DNA from: Halodesulfovibrio sp.
GTDB taxonomy: Bacteria > Desulfobacterota > Desulfovibrionia > Desulfovibrionales > Desulfovibrionaceae
Assembly (NCBI RefSeq): GCF_025210605.1
Contig: NZ_JAOARI010000035.1
Location: 1 to 64,000, forward strand
DNA: 64,000 bases
Reading direction: 5' to 3'
Shown here: positions 41,381-63,923 of the stretch, one piece after another
Position numbering within the stretch: position 1 is the stretch's first letter
How the letters are laid out: each line of letters starts with the position of its first letter
The notes under the pieces: generated by a model
Told to the model about the DNA's origin: nothing
What the model saw: only the letters and a program-made list of their open reading frames with translations
The model's database searches: none
Translations under genes and position numbers: made by a program

Positions 41381-41430
41381 AAAAAAAAGCGCTCACAACA
41401 ATTTAAAAATCGTCGTAAGCGCTTTTTTAT
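41381..41430 (-). terminator. Terminator-like hairpin next to the left tRNA-Leu fragment
   Basis: aaaaaaaagcgct pairs with agcgctttttt across a 24 base loop. Similar hairpins lie beside the other two tRNA copies. This copy is probably the original tRNA-Leu terminator, now separated from the gene by the islands. Confidence 0.65.
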
Positions 41431-41433
41431 TTC

Positions 41434-41490
41434 TGGTACCCGGGGCCGGACTTGAACCGGCACGTCCTTGCGGACGAGAGATTTTAAGTC
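41434..41490 (-). repeat. Attachment-site copy L: 57 bp 3' half of tRNA-Leu
   Basis: It runs from the CCA end (tgg on the plus strand) through the T arm and variable arm to the anticodon loop, then diverges. It is identical to copy M (52473-52529) and differs from copy R (63837-63893) by one base in the variable loop (gcggac against gaggac). It marks the left end of element 1. Confidence 0.92.
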
Positions 41491-41630
41491 GCTGTACGAA
41501 CCTTCACAGATCCTCACAAATGAAATTCAACCATTTGACTTAAAAGAGTTTTTCATATTAAGCTTTTCACAGTTCATAACCTGTATCCCCACTATTTCAG
41601 CTACAAAATGGGGACAATAATGGAGAGCTT

Positions 41631-42782
41631 ATGGCAAAATTCAAATGGAACTCGACCTCAATTAGAGGCATTCGGTACAGAGAGCACCCAACACGCAAGC
41701 ATGGGGTAAAAAAAGATCGGTATTTTGCGATTTGCTACCAAAAGGACGGGAAAAGACGCGAGGCCGCTCTTGGATGGGCTTCTGAAGGCTAGACAATAGA
41801 CAAAGCCTTTGCGCAACTTTCAAAACTTAAAGAAGCTGCTACGACTGGCGAAGGGCACACGACCCTCAAAGACAAACGCCAAGCAGCAGAACAGAAACAG
41901 CAACAAAAGAAAGCTAAACGAATCACACTAGATGAATACTGGTCTTCTGCCTACCTTGCCCACGCTCAGAGAACTAAAAAAAAGTCATGGCACAAGGAAG
42001 AAAGCCATTACAGAAATCATCTCTCTCCATTGTTGGGAAAGACTTCTCTCTGCGATATTTCAATGCATCACTGGGATTCTCTTGTTAGCCGCCTGACTTC
42101 TCAGAAACTTTCTGAACGCTCTGTTGAGTATATCTCCGGAACACTGCGAAGAGTGCTTCGTCATGCCCATGATCGTGGAATTACAGATTCTCCACCGCCC
42201 TCTGGAAAAAAAGTGGGAGCGACCGCTCCCACCAATAACCGCAGAATGCGAATTATTACTCCAGAAGAAAAGGTATTAATTCTTAACGAGCTAAAAATCT
42301 CTGACCTTCAAGCATGGCGCATTACTCTATTCGCGTTTCTAACTGGTTGCAGAGCGAGCGAAGCCTTTTCTCTTGAATGGCGTAATGTAACCGCCAACGG
42401 AATAAATTTTGAGAACACTAAGAACTCAGAATCCAGAACTATTCCGATGAGCACCCCACTACGTGAGCTTATTGCATCAATTGCTACAGGCGCGCCAACT
42501 GAAAAAGTTTTTACCAATGCCCACATGCGAACCTACAAAGAAGCACCGTCGCCATTCAGAACAGCTGTAAGCAGACTTGGATTAAATGAAGACAGAGCAC
42601 GTCTAGACTGTATCTCTTTTCACAGCATCAGGCACACTGTTGCCACAGAACTAGCAAAACAAATCGATATTCGCTCACTCATGGATATCATGGGGTGGAA
42701 GGTTCCTGCGATGGCTTTGCGGTATATGCATGGAGATGATAGTTCTAAACTACGTGCTTTAGAAAATATACAATCATTATAG
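41631..42782 (+). pseudogene. Tyrosine-recombinase integrase of element 1, interrupted by TAG
   Basis: ATG 41631, behind GGAG, opens a frame of 384 codons with a single in-frame TAG at 41790-41792 (codon 54). The related integrase of element 2 has Trp at the matching place (GGWTAEKA against EG*TIDKA), so a TGG to TAG change is the simplest cause. Downstream the catalytic domain is intact: LTGCRASEAF, SFHSIRHTVATELA, LMDIMGW, AMALRYMHG with the Tyr. Restart at 42030 would lack the arm-binding and part of the core-binding domain. Read-through or sequence error are alternatives. Confidence 0.85.
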
Positions 42783-42845
42783 ACTTTATAGACAAAAATC
42801 ATACTGAAAGTTATCACTCACTGATATACTTTGGAGGGGTAACTA

Positions 42846-44468
42846 ATGTTCGCAAAACAACTATCGCTTGTTGAAAAAAATACAATACAAAAAAATAAGA
42901 AAAACCTTGGCTACAAAGGGATTGAACAACGAAAAAGTCGTGAATTAGTTTTTGCCTTTGTCGAACCCATAGGCGGCGGCGCTAAAGATGCAGCCAGAAA
43001 ACTAGAAGAGTTATTGAAATCTGCTGAATTCGATTACGAAGTAAACCCCATCTCTATGAGTTCAATAATTGAAGAAGAAGCTACAAGGCTCGGCTTCGAA
43101 GAGGGTGAAATAAAAACAGACCTCATTGGACACAATGCTTCAAAAGCCGCAAGCAAAATATATAAACTACAACGATGGGGGAATACCCTTAGAGAACGCT
43201 TTGGTTTCGACCATCTTGCCAAAATAGCAATCTCTAAGATCGTGGAATTTAAAGTAGATAATGACAGCTACGAAACAGCTGAAGGAGCTGTTACTGTTCA
43301 AAAACCGGACAAAATCGCTCACATTATCAGGTCAGTAAAACATAAAGATGAGTTAAAGCTGTTAGAGTCCATCTATGGAAAAATACTCTTTCTTATTGGA
43401 ACAAGTGGCAGCCATTCTCAACAACTTGAAAACTTTAGGTCATGCAGCAACGGTCAACGCCAACAAGATCAGCGTAAAAAAGAATATGACTTTCTAAGCA
43501 AAATTGACCAAAAAGAAGGAATCAAAAATGGCCAACAAGTTCGAGAAATCTTCCACAAAGCAGATCTATTTTTAAACAGCCAGCACAATAATCTCTCTCG
43601 TGACTTATCTCGCTTTTTAAATCTTCTTTTTGGACGACAAATTATTAGTCCAACAGTCGAAGAAACCATGATGGCTAAAGCTTTTTCAGCTCGCCTTCGC
43701 TCTACATGTTTATCTAGACAAGTAGGTGCTGCAATTTGTGATAGTAATAATGAACTAGTTTCTATTGGATGGAATGATGTACCTGCATACAAAGGAGGAT
43801 TAACGACAGATCATACAAGAAATTATGAAAAAGTTATGTGCAAAGAACTTGGCGAATGCAGAAGTAAAGTCGAAATTTCATCTTTACTTTCAAATATTTA
43901 TAATAACTTAAAAAAACAAGGGATGCTAAAAAAAACATGTAAAGAACAAGATATTTTTGAACTCCTTGAAGATGCTGGTTTAAAAAACCTTATTGAATTT
44001 TCTCGAGCTATCCATGCGGAAATGGAGGCGATTTTAAGCGCAGCCAGAACGTCCAAAAAAGGTTTGAGAGATGGTACGATTTACGTTACCACTTACCCAT
44101 GTGACAATTGTGCAAAGCACATTCTTGCTGTTGGGCTTGCACAAGTTGTTTACATAGAACCTTACCCCAAAAGCCGCGCAAAAGACTTTTTCGACGAATT
44201 AATTGAAGACGCCGAAGAATCTACAAGTGACTATAAACTTACATTCAAGCAGTTCGTAGGTCTTGCTCCTAAAGCTTACGCGTTATTCTTTGAGAAATGG
44301 TATGATCGAAAAAAGGATGATGGGACGTGTGTCAACAGAGCTGATGCAACACTCCCCTTAACTGATGTATACCTCGACAGCTATACATTATACGAACACC
44401 GTATTACCGAAGAATTAGAAGAGTTAAAAAGTAATGCAAAAACAAAAACAGAAGATACTTCCAATTAA
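42846..44468 (+). CDS. AvcD-like anti-phage dCTP/dCMP deaminase
   Basis: The 540 aa protein has the two-part plan of AvcD-type deaminases, which deaminate dCTP/dCMP on phage infection and starve phage DNA synthesis. The N-terminal P-loop-like region reads VEPIGGGAKDAARKLEELL. The C-terminal cytidine-deaminase domain has H390-A-E392 and P418-C419-D-N-C422, with a preceding LSRQVGAAICDSNNELVSIGWN. AGGGGTAACT precedes ATG 42846. It starts only 63 bp after the integrase, leaving little room for the RNA antitoxin (avcI) found upstream in Vibrio. A 75 aa frame overlaps its end. Confidence 0.85.
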   Translation: MFAKQLSLVEKNTIQKNKKNLGYKGIEQRKSRELVFAFVEPIGGGAKDAARKLEELLKSAEFDYEVNPISMSSIIEEEATRLGFEEGEIKTDLIGHNASKAASKIYKLQRWGNTLRERFGFDHLAKIAISKIVEFKVDNDSYETAEGAVTVQKPDKIAHIIRSVKHKDELKLLESIYGKILFLIGTSGSHSQQLENFRSCSNGQRQQDQRKKEYDFLSKIDQKEGIKNGQQVREIFHKADLFLNSQHNNLSRDLSRFLNLLFGRQIISPTVEETMMAKAFSARLRSTCLSRQVGAAICDSNNELVSIGWNDVPAYKGGLTTDHTRNYEKVMCKELGECRSKVEISSLLSNIYNNLKKQGMLKKTCKEQDIFELLEDAGLKNLIEFSRAIHAEMEAILSAARTSKKGLRDGTIYVTTYPCDNCAKHILAVGLAQVVYIEPYPKSRAKDFFDELIEDAEESTSDYKLTFKQFVGLAPKAYALFFEKWYDRKKDDGTCVNRADATLPLTDVYLDSYTLYEHRITEELEELKSNAKTKTEDTSN

Positions 44469-44661
44469 AGGATTAGAAAAATTTTTCTCTGATGTCTTTG
44501 TTGAAAGCCACTCGATTGAAGTAAATGTTAACAGTAAAGTTGTTGAGTTATCCAAGTACAAAAGTACAAAACATTCACTACAGCTTGATTGTAATTCCTC
44601 TTCTTCAAGACTTTATAATCATGCAAAAAGCTTTACAAGCCACTACAAAATATTTGGATGA
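44434..44661 (+). CDS. Small protein overlapping the end of the deaminase gene
   Basis: The 75 aa frame starts at ATG 44434, 35 bp before the deaminase stop, in another frame. It is polar and has a Ser/Lys-rich middle. No clear RBS is visible, but the terminator that follows immediately (44668) fits it being the last gene of the transcript. It could be a cofactor of the deaminase or a chance frame. Confidence 0.4.
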   Translation: MQKQKQKILPIKGLEKFFSDVFVESHSIEVNVNSKVVELSKYKSTKHSLQLDCNSSSSRLYNHAKSFTSHYKIFG

Positions 44662-44667
44662 TCTAAC

Positions 44668-44696
44668 GCCCCTACCTGTTAAGTAGGGGCTTTTTT
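44668..44696. terminator. Terminator between the deaminase unit and mobB
   Basis: gcccctac (44668-44675) pairs with gtaggggc (44683-44690), followed by T6. It lies between convergent units. Confidence 0.85.
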
Positions 44697-45169: not shown

Positions 45170-45827
45170 AGCAAACTCCACGTTTTAGAAGTCCATTCCA
45201 AGAATAGCCACGTCCAAGGGAACTGCCTTTCATTACTACATCATCATATTCAAAGCTTATCCCACTGACGCGGCCTGTTTTTGCCTTGTTTAACAACACG
45301 CCGACACCTTGATGCGCCAAGTTCGTGCATAGTTCTAAAATTCTTTTGTATGCTTCAATGCTTCATCAAGCACATGCTGAAGCTGCTGTTTTACAGGGAG
45401 AGTGCCTGTTCTAAGCGCGAACTCAATCTCTTGCTTCTTAGGAGCCCGCTTCATTGCTTTCTGAGACAACAGCGCCATCCATCGACACACGGTTAGCTAT
45501 TATGTGAATATGATCATGCTCAGTGTCATTGTGCCGAACGACAACGTACTGGCTATTTGAAAACCCCATATGCTCCAAATAAGACTCTGCAACACCTTTC
45601 CATTACTCCCCATTTAAATTCTCATCAGGGGCAATACTAACAACAGAGTGAGCGACAGCTCTCCCTAGATTTGGGCGTAATTTACGTATAACTCCAAATT
45701 CAGAAGCAAACTGACGTGGTGTTTTACCAGCCATATTTGTTGCCAAAAACTCTGCCTTATCCTTAGATAGAGCGTAGTCTAATGCGCCCCTAAATCCTTT
45801 CCCCTTAATTACTTTCGCTATCATCAC
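44907..45827 (-). pseudogene. MobA-type relaxase, decayed
   Basis: Reading minus from 45827, the N-terminal part (KGKGFRGALDYALSKDKAEF) resembles MobA/VirD2 relaxases. A TAA ends it at 45603-45605. Beyond it the same frame continues with the histidine motif HNDTEHDHIHIIANRV, the relaxase metal site. Two further frame changes follow, near 45465 and at a short A run (45344-45347), after which the C-terminal part (GISFEYDDVVMKGSSLGRGY) continues to 44907, overlapping mobB. So nicking is probably lost. The mobC stop overlaps its start. Confidence 0.85.
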
Positions 45828-46200
45828 TAACTCCCAAAATCGCTAGCTGCACCTGACGCAACAAGTTCAATAAAATTTCTGGCTCTTTTTGAAGAGTCAC
45901 AGGCAGCCCCTTATTCGCTGCTCTCGCAAGTTGATTCAAACTCACACCGATTCTACTGAATTCGACATACATATCTCTATTCACTTCCGGAGCTGGCGGC
46001 GAAGGTAATTTGCGATCTAGTGCTGCATGACGAAGCCATTGAGCGGGACTCATACCCATTGTCTTTGCCCGTGCAATTAATTTGTCCATTTCTAACTCGT
46101 TAACTCGAACTCCAATTGTTCGAGAACGCACAGCCTCTTGCGACAACTTAGGGCGACCGCCCACTCCTTTTTTCCTTATGGAGTTCAACTGCTTTTTCAT
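45805..46200 (-). CDS. mobC: MobC-family relaxosome accessory protein
   Basis: The 131 aa protein resembles the plasmid MobC/TraJ-like family that binds oriT and helps strand opening. RKKGVGGRPKLS at the N-terminus, IGVRVNELEMDKLI (ribbon-helix-helix), GMSPAQWLRHAAL and VSLNQLARAAN are characteristic. The start is ATG 46200 with GAGG upstream; a longer in-frame start at 46290 lies in the putative oriT. Its 3' end overlaps the relaxase pseudogene by 23 bp. Confidence 0.85.
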   Translation of the reverse strand: MKKQLNSIRKKGVGGRPKLSQEAVRSRTIGVRVNELEMDKLIARAKTMGMSPAQWLRHAALDRKLPSPPAPEVNRDMYVEFSRIGVSLNQLARAANKGLPVTLQKEPEILLNLLRQVQLAILGVSDDSESN

Positions 46201-46204
46201 GCGA

Positions 46205-46260
46205 ACCTCGTGAGCATTGCCCCGCAGGGCAAGACGTTTGAGCGAAGCGAAAACATGGCT
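46205..46260 (-). other. Candidate origin of transfer (oriT)
   Basis: The stretch just upstream of mobC has a stem-loop ttgccc (46217-46222) and gggcaa (46227-46232) followed by a GC-rich segment gagcgaagcgaaaac. Position next to mobC and a stem beside a possible nick region fit an oriT. I cannot identify the nick site, so this is a weak inference. Confidence 0.35.
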
Positions 46261-46333
46261 TGCTACCAACCGATACAGCTTCAACCTCACTCAATATTTC
46301 AATCTATTGATGGCAACTGCGGGTAATATCTGT

Positions 46334-48654: not shown

Positions 48655-50595
48655 CTAGCTAGCCTCCCTATCTAGAATGTTGATCATTTTTCCATCCTCA
48701 TTCGGGAAACGAATTGCCAGTTTTGAATTAGCCTCTTTGATCTCTCCAATAATTGTCTCTATCACTTTAGCAAATGGGGCAACATTCTTACCGTGCTGCT
48801 CACACATGCTATAAGCCAAGTCAACATAGTCATCCTTTCCATAAAAATATGCCACTTTTACTGTAAATACCAAAACCCACAATGGAACTTCTGCGTCAAA
48901 ACAACATGAAGTTGCATTTACCCATGCTTCAAGATCATTTCTATTTACAAGAGAACAAACAATAAATGCGTATGCGGCATCTGCATTCATTCCCTCTTTA
49001 TGAAACTTTATCCCTAAATTATACCATGCTAAAGGACACAAAAGATCTAATCGCAGTGACTCATTAATTCGAGCTTCAGCGTCTTCTTGTGTTTTACATT
49101 CAGATATGTCCGCCATCTTAATGGCAGCTTTCCGCTCACGCGCTTGTAATTTCAGATCAAACTTTTCAAGCAACATACTTAAACAAAAGAACTTAAGACG
49201 CCATTCAGCATGCTCGTCATGTGACTCATCTAAAAATTTGGAAAAAATTTTACAAGATAATTGATAATTCCCTGCTAGCATCAAAGAATCCGCATACAAA
49301 GGAAGAATGCCCTCTCTTTCTTCAATATCTAACGACTTTTTATAGTACGCTGCAGCATGATTATATTTCCCAATATCAAACAACAGCCCACCAAGTTCAC
49401 TGAAAAAATATGCTTGCTGATAGTATGCAGGTTGATGTTTCCGAGCCCTTAAATAACATTGAATAGCTTTACGATTTTTACTAATGCTTCGATAAAAATT
49501 TCCAAGGTTGTACAAAGAATGTCCGTACATTTCATCATGGATTTTTTCGTTCCGTTCAACACAATGAAGTAAATAAGCTTCGATAGCGGCTGCCTTTTTA
49601 TCATCCGTTCTATCTAAAGAATGCAAAATGGCTATAAGCACAGCACCTTCAATATGTTCTGAGACGCCCTTCTCAATAGCTAACTTAGCAATCTCAATAG
49701 CCTTCTCAAACTCGTTTGAGTTAAGCAGCTGTGGGAAAATGTGGACTAACAAATCTGGTTTATTCACTAGTTTTGCACCAACGCCATCAGCAAAAGCTAC
49801 CTTTGCAGAAAAATCATTATTACCCATCTGAGCAATAATGGCAGCTAGTCCCAACATAATATCTTTTGCCAACTCAGCAGCTAGTGAATCTTGTTCCATT
49901 GACGCTACATTATGAAATACACAATGATACACGCCTCCAAGATCTATACTTAATTCCTCAGGTGAAATCTGAATATTAACGATCGCATCTTCTTTCGCCA
50001 ACAGCACTCGAACATGTTTGCTGTATTCTTGACGCATTTCTTTGCGTAACTTTGCCAAAAGAAGGCCGGACTCCACACCACAAACGTGACTTCCATTAAC
50101 GACCAAATTACATTTAACAGGAAAATTAATTGCTCCGTTTCGTATCATCTTAATCTTTTTTAGCTGTTCCTGAATAAGCCGAGGAGTTTTCTCTTTCTCC
50201 CAACAATCCGAATCAACGAATTTTATTAAGACAGTTTTAGCCCCCTCTTTTGCGCCATACAGATCTATTTCATGTGCCCATTTATAATAAAATTTATCCT
50301 GAACAGATGAATATCTGACAATCAAAACAGGGATATCTAACCTTCTATAGTACTCTAATGTTTCAATTTTTAGATTAAAATTTTTAATCGTGTATGCCTT
50401 TGTGGAGCTCGTGGCCTTAAGTTGAACCCAATAAACTAACCCAGAAGGACTACCATCAACATCAAAAACCTCAACTTCAACGTCAACTCCATAATCTTTA
50501 TCTTTATCACGACTTACCCATTCTTTAGGTAATAGTATTCCATACTTATGTCTTGAAAGATCTTCTAGGTGGTGCTGCATAACGCGTTTAGGCAT
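48655..50595 (-). CDS. DUF4365 (PD-(D/E)XK-like) protein with C-terminal TPR repeats
   Basis: The 646 aa protein has an N-terminal DUF4365 domain (residues 1-130). D38 in YGVDVEVEVF and Q58-L-K60 in YWVQLKATSS form a D...QxK version of the restriction-nuclease active site. Residues about 340-480 carry at least three TPR-like repeats (SLYNLGNFYRSISKNRKAIQ, FSELGGLLFDIGKYNHAA, YADSLMLAGNYQLS). TPR parts often sense partners. The gene follows the HNH gene by 65 bp. A defence function is an inference from domain type and island context. Confidence 0.72.
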   Translation of the reverse strand: MPKRVMQHHLEDLSRHKYGILLPKEWVSRDKDKDYGVDVEVEVFDVDGSPSGLVYWVQLKATSSTKAYTIKNFNLKIETLEYYRRLDIPVLIVRYSSVQDKFYYKWAHEIDLYGAKEGAKTVLIKFVDSDCWEKEKTPRLIQEQLKKIKMIRNGAINFPVKCNLVVNGSHVCGVESGLLLAKLRKEMRQEYSKHVRVLLAKEDAIVNIQISPEELSIDLGGVYHCVFHNVASMEQDSLAAELAKDIMLGLAAIIAQMGNNDFSAKVAFADGVGAKLVNKPDLLVHIFPQLLNSNEFEKAIEIAKLAIEKGVSEHIEGAVLIAILHSLDRTDDKKAAAIEAYLLHCVERNEKIHDEMYGHSLYNLGNFYRSISKNRKAIQCYLRARKHQPAYYQQAYFFSELGGLLFDIGKYNHAAAYYKKSLDIEEREGILPLYADSLMLAGNYQLSCKIFSKFLDESHDEHAEWRLKFFCLSMLLEKFDLKLQARERKAAIKMADISECKTQEDAEARINESLRLDLLCPLAWYNLGIKFHKEGMNADAAYAFIVCSLVNRNDLEAWVNATSCCFDAEVPLWVLVFTVKVAYFYGKDDYVDLAYSMCEQHGKNVAPFAKVIETIIGEIKEANSKLAIRFPNEDGKMINILDREAS

Positions 50596-52414: not shown

Positions 52415-52468
52415 GCAAAAAAAAAGCACTAACAACAATTTTAGAAATCATCGTAAGTGCTTGATTTT
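52415..52468 (-). terminator. Terminator-like hairpin at the middle att copy
   Basis: aaaaaaagcact pairs with agtgctt across a loop similar to that at 41381. It is part of the right end of element 1. Confidence 0.55.
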
Positions 52469-52472
52469 ACTC

Positions 52473-52529
52473 TGGTACCCGGGGCCGGACTTGAACCGGC
52501 ACGTCCTTGCGGACGAGAGATTTTAAGTC
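52473..52529 (-). repeat. Attachment-site copy M: 57 bp tRNA-Leu 3' half
   Basis: It is identical to copy L and separates elements 1 and 2. After the last shared base (gtc of the anticodon stem) it continues as ttaattcac, not as the tRNA 5' half. Confidence 0.92.
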
Positions 52530-52675: not shown

Positions 52676-53796
52676 ATGGCAAAAATTATCTGGCACAAAA
52701 CCAAATTCCCTGGCGTACGCTTTTATGAACACAACACCAGAAGACACAATCGTCGAAAGGATAAATACTTCACTGCTCGCTTTCAAAAAAATGGAACACG
52801 TAAAGAATTAGGTCTCGGATGGAGTTCGGGTGGGTGGACGGCAGAAAAAGCCTACAACGAACTCCTAAACTGCAAAAAGGCAAAACCACATCCACATCAA
52901 CAGAAACAAAAAAACAAACTCAGACAGCCAAGCCTGAAGTGGAAGCAACACTCAATAGCTACTGGAAAGAATCCTACTTATCATTTGCTAAGCGAACTAA
53001 GATAAAGTCATGGCATAAAGAACAAAGTCATTTTGTTAACCACTTATCTCCAGTTCTCGGAGAAAAGAAACTTGCTACCATTTCAATCATAGATTGGGAC
53101 AAAATTATAACCAATCTAGTCGAAAAAAAGCTCTCAGAACGTTCTATCGAATATATTTCAGGCACGTTACGAAGAGTACTTAGGCACGCTCACCTAAGAG
53201 GAATCATCTCGCAAAGCCCACCAAGTGCTAAAGCTGTAGGTACCACCATCACCAATGACAATCGCCGAAAGCGCACAATCCAACCCCACGAAAAAGAAAT
53301 GATTCTTAACTACCTAAAAGAAAATGATGCAAATGCTTGGCGAATTACACTCTTTGCATTTCTAACTGGCTGCAGAGCAAGTGAAACATTCAAACTTGAA
53401 TGGCGACATATCACAAATACCCACATCACATTCGACAATACTAAAAATGGTTCATCCAGAACCATACCCATTAGTAATACATTGCAATCCCTACTGCTCT
53501 CTTGTGAAGAGCGTACTCCCACAAATCGAGTCTTTTTGCGAAAAGACTACACTCCCTATTACGAAGCACCAGCGACTTTCAGAACATGTATACAGACACT
53601 AGGATTTAATGAAGGTCGTGCGAGGCTTGATCGAATAACTTTTCATAGTATTCGGCATACAGTCGCAACAGAGCTCGCAAACAGGCTCGATTTACGTTCC
53701 TTGATGGACATCATGGGCTGGAAAGTGCCTGCGATGGCCTTAAGGTACATGCATGGCAACGAGCTACAGAAACTTGCTGCTCTTGAGATGCTTTAG
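52676..53796 (+). pseudogene. Tyrosine-recombinase integrase of element 2, frameshifted
   Basis: Two frames together encode a protein very like integrase 1. The first (52676-53005) covers the arm-binding part up to GGWTAEKAYNELLNCKK; the second continues with GKTTSTSTETKKQ to the catalytic domain (LTGCRASETF, TFHSIRHTVATELA, LMDIMGW, AMALRYMHG). Restoring one A in the A5 run at 52874-52878 joins them. A -1 ribosomal shift at caaaaag would have the same effect, so functional expression is not excluded. Confidence 0.85.
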
Positions 53797-63781: not shown

Positions 63782-63834
63782 AAAAAAAGCGTTTATAACA
63801 ACTTCGAAAAGCTATCATAAACGCTTGATTTTAC
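63782..63834 (-). terminator. Terminator-like hairpin of tRNA-Leu
   Basis: aaaaaagcgtttat pairs with ataaacgctt on the plus strand, across a loop like those at 41381 and 52415. It follows the 3' end of the tRNA on the minus strand and belongs to element 2. Confidence 0.6.
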
Positions 63835-63836
63835 TC

Positions 63837-63893
63837 TGGTACCCGGGGCCGGACTTGAACCGGCACGTCCTTGAGGACGAGAGATTTTAAGTC
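63837..63893 (-). repeat. Attachment-site copy R: 57 bp tRNA-Leu 3' half
   Basis: It is the 3' half of the intact tRNA gene and matches copies L and M except for one base in the variable loop (a at 63874 on the plus strand in ttgaggac, c in the others). Confidence 0.92.
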
Positions 63894-63923
63894 TCTTGTG
63901 TCTACCAATTCCACCACCCGGGC
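63837..63923 (-). tRNA. tRNA-Leu (UAA)
   Basis: The 87 nt gene on the minus strand starts GCCCGGG (63923-63917), has a D loop (GGAATTGGTAGACAC), anticodon stem-loop GAGACTTAAAATCTC with UAA at 63889-63887, a long class II variable arm (GTCCTCAAGGAC), T arm GGTTCAAGTCC and acceptor CCCGGGTA plus CCA encoded. Leu identity follows from the UAA anticodon and the class II arm. It is the insertion site of both elements. Confidence 0.97.

Follow-up and report, generated by a model that had tools for sequence, protein, structure and literature searches.

A small, fast-evolving gene overlaps an anti-phage dCTP deaminase gene in Halodesulfovibrio and accompanies related deaminases across several phyla

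Results

A deaminase gene and a small overlapping gene lie at the left end of an integrated element

We analysed a 64,000-nucleotide stretch of Halodesulfovibrio sp. DNA (positions 1 to 64,000 of contig NZ_JAOARI010000035.1; hereafter, the window), in which the following features bear on the deaminase locus.

41381-41493, no strand assigned: left tRNA-Leu 3'-end repeat, att-like (blastn within the window, 85-91%)
41631-42782, plus strand: tyrosine integrase 1 of the element (ATG at 41631, in-frame TAG at 41790; PF00589 at 1.3e-21 for 42030-42782)
42833-42839, plus strand: Shine-Dalgarno-like GGAGGGG of the deaminase gene, read from the sequence, inside the 63 nt gap that follows the integrase
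42846-44468, plus strand: predicted anti-phage dCTP/dCMP deaminase (AvcD/DCTD-type), 540 aa (NF041025, PADLOC dCTPase, AF2 with Foldseek)
44434-44661, plus strand: small partner gene encoding 75 aa, with a 35 nt overlap with the 3' end of the deaminase gene (homologues, HMM, dN/dS)
44449-44466, plus strand: QKILPI, the window version of an N-terminal clamp-binding-like hexapeptide (aligned columns, regex counts)
44548-44655, plus strand: predicted C-terminal helix of the small protein, residues 39-74, ending YKIF (AF2, alignments)
44668-44690, plus strand: intrinsic terminator, an 8 bp stem and then TTTTTT, starting 7 nt past the small-gene stop (fold z -4.3)
52418-52529 and 63782-63896: other tRNA-Leu 3'-end copies (blastn within the window, 85-91%)
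63837-63923: intact tRNA-Leu

The deaminase operon occupies the left end of an element flanked by tRNA-Leu 3'-end copies. The presence of three such copies suggests that two elements inserted in tandem at one tRNA-Leu gene; the second element has its own integrase at 52819-53796. As the initial annotation had described, 63 nt separate the integrase stop at 42782 from the deaminase ATG at 42846. What it called integrase 1 does adjoin the deaminase gene but is a TAG-interrupted frame that extends over 41631-42782, of which the 250 aa ORF listed there is the C-terminal part. On the minus strand, 45603-46290 encodes a NikA-like mobilisation protein and then a relaxase of which 74 aa are left, which makes the element's mobilisation module look degenerate. 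Also on the minus strand, 48655-50595 encodes a DUF4365-TPR protein of 646 aa that weakly matches (3e-9) a PADLOC model of an Argonaute-associated nuclease; it is a possible second item of defence cargo on this element.

The 540 aa ORF at 42846-44468 agrees in coordinates, length and motifs with the initial annotation, the deaminase motifs being HAEM at residues 390-393 and PCDNC at residues 418-422. The zinc deaminase site (H390, A391 and E392; P418, C419 and C422) is invariant in alignments of 14 and 82 rows. The protein matches the NF041025 model, 'anti-phage dCTP deaminase', over model positions 1-437 of 437 and passes the curated cut-off by a small margin (402 versus 400 bits), and it matches the PADLOC dCTPase model at 4e-139. 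Foldseek searches with the two halves of an AF2 model (mean pLDDT 91.5) retrieved dCMP deaminases and an AdkA-like (adenylate-kinase-related) kinase (3lw7/3h0k), and both halves are also related to dCMP deaminase or adenylate-kinase-like proteins at the sequence level. The P-loop-like N-terminus noted earlier is indeed the kinase-like domain of the deaminase family, but the loop itself is degenerate: alignment gives VEPIGGGA in the window clade and CGxxGSG in distant homologues. In the window clade the kinase-like fold is present, but the loop departs from the GxxGSG type. With a full-length match, zinc deaminase motifs and a kinase-like N-terminal fold in common with the deaminases behind NF041025 and PADLOC dCTPase, the window protein is a member of the anti-phage dCTP deaminases, and family membership predicts phage protection and dCTP/dCMP deamination on infection. 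It is the only full-length copy in the host genome. The NCBIfam and PADLOC libraries treat the anti-phage dCTP deaminase as a single gene, whereas the window locus has a partner gene.

No AvcI-like RNA is detected upstream of the window deaminase gene

In the AvcID system, AvcI is reported to be a non-coding RNA that binds and inhibits AvcD and is lost on infection, and AvcID has been called a type III toxin-antitoxin system (PMC10511110); the RNA has been described in the region upstream of the deaminase gene (PMC9455884). One option raised by the initial annotation was that such an RNA overlaps the integrase 3' end. We searched upstream of the window deaminase gene by folding, by comparison with its closest relatives and with Rfam, and found no AvcI-like RNA. 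The 150 nt before the deaminase gene (42696-42845) fold no better than shuffled sequences (z = 0.08), and Rfam gave no credible match. The comparison covered eight loci of the window's own deaminase branch, the window included, with relatives at about 50% identity. Among the eight, at least four different genes lie upstream: the integrase in the window, a DUF900 hydrolase, a DUF2806 protein and, at four loci, dxs, with the deaminase starting about 10-55 nt after the dxs stop. The upstream 300 nt have nothing detectable in common across these homologues except dxs coding DNA. The initial annotation had pointed to the region 42600-42845 of homologues as the place to look for a conserved AvcI-like RNA structure, and neither the upstream comparison nor the fold of the window leader gave a sign of one. 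On these grounds (varied upstream genes, unshared sequence, an unremarkable fold and no Rfam match) we rejected an AvcI-like RNA at 42600-42845. Positional analogy with the Vibrio and E. coli AvcID systems is the sole point in its favour, and we regard it as extremely improbable.

A promoter scanner found no sigma-70 promoter in the 63 nt gap. The sequence TGATATACT at 42822-42830 is similar to an extended -10 promoter and almost abuts the Shine-Dalgarno of the deaminase gene.

The 75 aa frame belongs to a partner family that is found with the deaminase across phyla

The initial annotation had also offered a downstream regulator, encoded by the 75 aa frame, and, as a third option, control of some other kind. 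The frame does overlap the deaminase 3' end, and it is now strongly favoured as the place to look for a regulator, since it is under selection as a conserved gene and goes with the deaminase across phyla. What the data establish is a conserved coding gene; regulation of the deaminase by its product we infer. The terminator located 7 nt after the small gene makes the deaminase and the small gene look like one transcription unit.

At all 16 deaminase loci examined in the host family, the window included, an ORF of 56-77 aa lies just downstream, starting between 65 nt before and 134 nt after the deaminase stop. In alignment, the products have a central V-x-x-F, a C-terminal helix-like tail and, in most, an N-terminal QxxLP[ILFMV]. 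We extended the survey to 123 distinct deaminase loci, which came from GTDB genomes, viral contigs and plasmids; a single-protein query of the genome and viral contigs found nothing, and an alignment query was used instead. A partner HMM, seeded from the host-family downstream ORFs only and then iterated, placed a partner at 76 of the 123 loci (56 downstream and 20 upstream of the deaminase gene) and at none of 1697 control ORFs taken from the opposite strand or far away. Because iteration flatters the sequences that it has taken in, we scored each one with itself and all relatives of at least 40% identity removed; 72 of the 76 had E < 0.01 and 73 scored above every control, in alignment columns that had been built with the left-out sequences included. 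Scored with an HMM built without it and such relatives, the window frame had an E-value of 0.004, above all 1697 control ORFs. For a small separate set of plasmid and E. coli loci fetched afterwards, one near-copy of a training sequence aside, the best matches were all at the expected place: E-values were 0.002-0.026 for the partners of Photobacterium, Vibrio coralliilyticus, Pantoea, E. coli C11 and E. coli 13TMH22, and a weak 0.68 for the partner ORF of the enterotoxigenic E. coli (ETEC) plasmid p58, the best of 492 controls being 2.3.

The dN/dS of partner homologues was 0.05-0.43 in most comparable pairs, and synonymous changes were in excess, with p-values from 9.5e-5 (L014/L015, a pair with no deaminase overlap) to 5e-7 (L059/L086) and of about 0.01 for each upstream-type pair, indicating that the small ORF is coding. 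In most pairs, the partner evolves faster than the deaminase, a pattern that may fit regulators in an arms race. The small protein is thus encoded by a genuine gene that evolves fast and accompanies this family of deaminases in several phyla. We are nearly certain that the 75 aa ORF in the window is a real gene, its role being a matter of the arguments below. No partner was assigned to 22 of the 127 proteins in the deaminase tree, mostly in the more distant clades, and a search for a natural deaminase-partner fusion found none convincing. Representative partners had no match among Pfam and PADLOC models; the window copy had no match in Pfam or NCBIfam and a marginal one, at E 0.005, in PADLOC. 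Our search of the literature available to us for a small-protein or clamp partner of anti-phage dCTP deaminases found none.

The AF2 model of the small protein (mean pLDDT 71, pTM 0.28) is usable for secondary structure only, and at low overall confidence it gives an extended N-terminus and one C-terminal helix. In alignments, the YKIF end of the window partner corresponds to 'A..LxW' or 'GIF' tails elsewhere in the family.

Most downstream-type partners carry an N-terminal motif resembling a clamp-binding hexapeptide

In the downstream-type partners, the N-terminal hexapeptide has Q at position 1 in 50 of 56, L or F at position 4 in 52 of 53 and F, L, I, V or M at position 6 in 51 of 52, with S the commonest residue at position 3. 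Of the 56 downstream partners, 37 match the strict pattern Q[LM]x[LF]x[FL], compared with a mean of 0.14 in shuffled sequences and 1 of 1476 distant ORFs, and 48 match a loose version, compared with 1.1 in shuffles, although the sequences of a family are not independent and all that the comparison with shuffles establishes is that composition does not account for the motif. Members read, for instance, QLSLPL, QLTLPL, QLDLDF, QLSFNF and QLKLNF. In the window hexapeptide, QKILPI, positions 1, 4 and 6 hold the Q, L and I of the motif, but the K at position 2 is atypical and the peptide fails the regex used; relatives read QLFLPI, QLRLPI, QLLLPI and QLSLPL.

QLSLPL, the peptide of Hda, has a KD of 280 nM for E. 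coli DnaN, and the general consensus of such peptides is QL[S/D]LF (PMC12309361); the counterpart in HdaA is QFKLPL (PMC3836487). The downstream-type partner, like Hda and HdaA, has a QLxL(P)[LF] hexapeptide with a comparable N-terminal placement. It differs from them in that the partner has no AAA+ domain and goes with a nucleotide-pool enzyme, and in that its clamp binding is read from the motif. The downstream-type partner matches the beta-sliding-clamp-binding hexapeptide and would on that basis be expected to bind DnaN. That the motif stays while almost everything else in the partner changes argues that it has a function. In the upstream type, the motif is present in 1-2 of 20 partners and the C-terminal helix is kept; with the motif mostly missing there, clamp docking cannot be essential to whatever function the two types share.

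Upstream-type partner ORFs lie where the AvcI RNA is reported

In the deaminase tree, loci of the upstream type form one nested clade (support 0.948) plus one lone member, and the downstream type makes up the surrounding branches, including that of the window. The ETEC H10407 plasmid p58 deaminase, which the window deaminase matches at 29% over 95% of the query, falls in the upstream clade. Among the AvcID systems that have been tested by experiment is one from ETEC (PMC10511110), and we take it to be the H10407 p58 locus. There, a 61 aa ORF annotated 'hypothetical protein' ends 13 nt before the deaminase gene, where the AvcI RNA is reported. By score this ORF (L169) is a weak match to the partner HMM, and it is visibly like the ORF of E. 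coli 13TMH22. The original papers on AvcD and the dCTP deaminases reportedly considered small ORFs in AvcI.

In ETEC p58, Klebsiella, E. coli and Photobacterium, upstream ORFs annotated only as hypothetical are members of the partner family or look like it, and they occupy the position reported for the AvcI RNA of AvcID systems (L169:2222-2407; L170:2216-2398; L172:705-887; L174:1787-1975; L176:2169-2339), and the upstream ORF of E. coli 13TMH22 (L173) is unannotated. The upstream-type ORFs have a codon-position signature of 0.58/0.93/0.44 bits, compared with 0.15 bits past the stop codon, and the final Trp is invariant in the 22 upstream-type sequences used. Our claim is that AvcI-type DNA encodes a conserved protein in most of the upstream clade; we make no claim that the RNA result is wrong.

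We also looked for RNA constraint on the small gene. No consensus RNA structure was predicted for 17 upstream-type regions, which align poorly, and the 150 nt over the window small gene have no unusual fold (z = -0.27). A synonymous-rate test for RNA constraint gave a mixed result, with no general drop; in 3 of 14 gene pairs, the small ORF had fewer synonymous changes than any compared segment of the deaminase gene.

The window locus has a deaminase homologous to that of the Vibrio and ETEC AvcID systems, and the ETEC p58 small ORF adjoining the deaminase resembles the partner family, albeit as a weak match. By contrast, the small gene of the window lies downstream, overlaps the deaminase gene and belongs to the type in which the clamp motif is usual; no RNA signal is seen upstream (a 63 nt gap and no conservation), and the deaminase is on a separate branch with an altered P-loop. 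Because we looked for an upstream RNA antitoxin and found none, we do not file the window locus as AvcID. The distinction that the initial annotation had drawn between a usual RNA antitoxin and an unusual branch calls for revision: ETEC p58 has a similar small ORF upstream, where AvcI is reported.

Discussion

The reading that we favour, and hold to be somewhat on the probable side, is that the window carries a two-gene defence operon, consisting of the deaminase and a small regulatory, probably inhibitory, protein that docks on the clamp. The locus would be a phage-defence operon on a tRNA-Leu-integrated element, with the small gene translationally overlapping the deaminase gene and a terminator after it. 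The small protein would consist of an N-terminal clamp-like linear motif, a variable linker and a C-terminal helix, and would serve as the regulator of the deaminase, its helix or tail binding and restraining the enzyme in uninfected cells. It may be short-lived, docked on the replication clamp, or both. A phage that shuts off host expression or takes over replication would cause the small protein to be lost or titrated, and the freed deaminase would then destroy dC nucleotides. An upstream AvcI-type RNA would be unneeded at such a locus. Inhibition, deaminase binding and clamp binding by the small protein are all predictions from sequence.

On this reading the window locus may work like a toxin-antitoxin pair. 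As in type II systems, a small gene for a cognate protein is adjacent to the enzyme gene and conserved with it. With type II pairs and with small inhibitors of defence toxins, such as the short gene next to Sofic (PMC12249575), it has in common a toxic enzyme and an adjoining, overlapping small gene whose product has a linear segment and a helix. The window differs from these systems in having the enzyme first, a small protein with no recognised DNA-binding domain, an extra clamp-like motif and an inhibitory role that is read from the arrangement.

The clamp hexapeptide, the strongest single feature of the downstream type, is also typical of proteins that are recruited to the replisome, such as Hda (PMC3836487). 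It could instead mark the small protein as an adaptor that targets and activates the deaminase by tethering it to the replication clamp, so as to destroy dC nucleotides at replication forks, those of phages relying on the host clamp among them. The gene order would suit this role, as the main type encodes the partner after the deaminase and antitoxins are often encoded first. However, the upstream-type partners of the ETEC p58 clade keep the helix without the motif, suggesting that the shared function is deaminase binding or regulation, and tethering would gain little against a diffusible small-molecule pool. We consider an adaptor unlikely, if credible. Alternatively, the transcript of the small gene, downstream here and upstream in Vibrio and E. 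coli, could be an AvcI-type RNA antitoxin, with an ORF that is secondary or dual-function. The reported inhibition of AvcD by AvcI as an RNA (PMC10511110) means that in at least one clade an RNA suffices, which counts against a protein regulator, and both the position of the ETEC p58 61 aa ORF in the upstream region of the reported AvcI and the few synonymous changes in 3 of the 14 gene pairs are consistent with this alternative. The small gene is nonetheless conserved at the protein level, with a synonymous excess and, in the upstream type, a codon signature that falls away past the stop. The upstream-type regions yield no consensus structure (in a weak alignment), the fold of the window copy is unremarkable and the synonymous rate shows no general drop. 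An RNA regulator is, to our minds, unlikely too, and slightly more so than an adaptor.

The 22 of 127 deaminases without a partner suggest that some may not need one, and some distant deaminases have no recognised partner. These would suit a deaminase that is unregulated, or controlled only by nucleotides or its own kinase-like domain, beside a small gene with a separate role such as counter-defence or an unrelated clamp function. The partner, however, tracks the deaminase across phyla, in two positions and among otherwise changing neighbours, which argues for a joint function and makes a separate role very unlikely. Returning to the inhibitory, clamp-docking regulator, we extend it more tentatively to the anti-phage dCTP deaminases at large, and rate the extension as possible but short of probable: they would generally be two-protein systems, regulated by a small and mostly unannotated protein that in most cases carries a clamp motif and thereby makes deaminase release depend on the condition of the replisome, and the AvcI locus of Vibrio and E. 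coli would encode the same protein family.

As to how these deaminases are silenced and sense infection outside the few AvcID systems, the conserved partner is a directly testable candidate regulator, for which the clamp-like motif suggests a concrete sensing route, namely replisome occupancy. The partner is easily missed, being 50-77 aa long and encoded inside or beside the deaminase gene, and is present in several phyla; cloning the deaminase 'as a single gene' may unknowingly include the partner or cut it off. Because of the overlap with the AvcI locus, simple recoding could test the RNA-antitoxin model that has been published. Were the AvcI locus to encode the partner family, the type III (RNA) class would need a second look, or widening to take in a dual RNA/protein regulator.

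Other ORFs are found next to deaminases of this family. In a separate clade of deaminases (support 0.996; L062, L070, L119, L121, L123, L128 and L183, and L117 more weakly), the deaminase gene is closely followed by a second, different family of small ORFs, with a W-P-x-W-K/R motif (for example, NWPEWKR) and with no Pfam or PADLOC match among the representatives scanned. In Pseudosulfitobacter and Rhizobium, the downstream partners are larger, at 172 and 179 aa (L178:4194-4712 and L180:3542-4081), and have KQLSLFDDF or EEQLSFNLE near the N-terminus, together with an additional part of unknown family.
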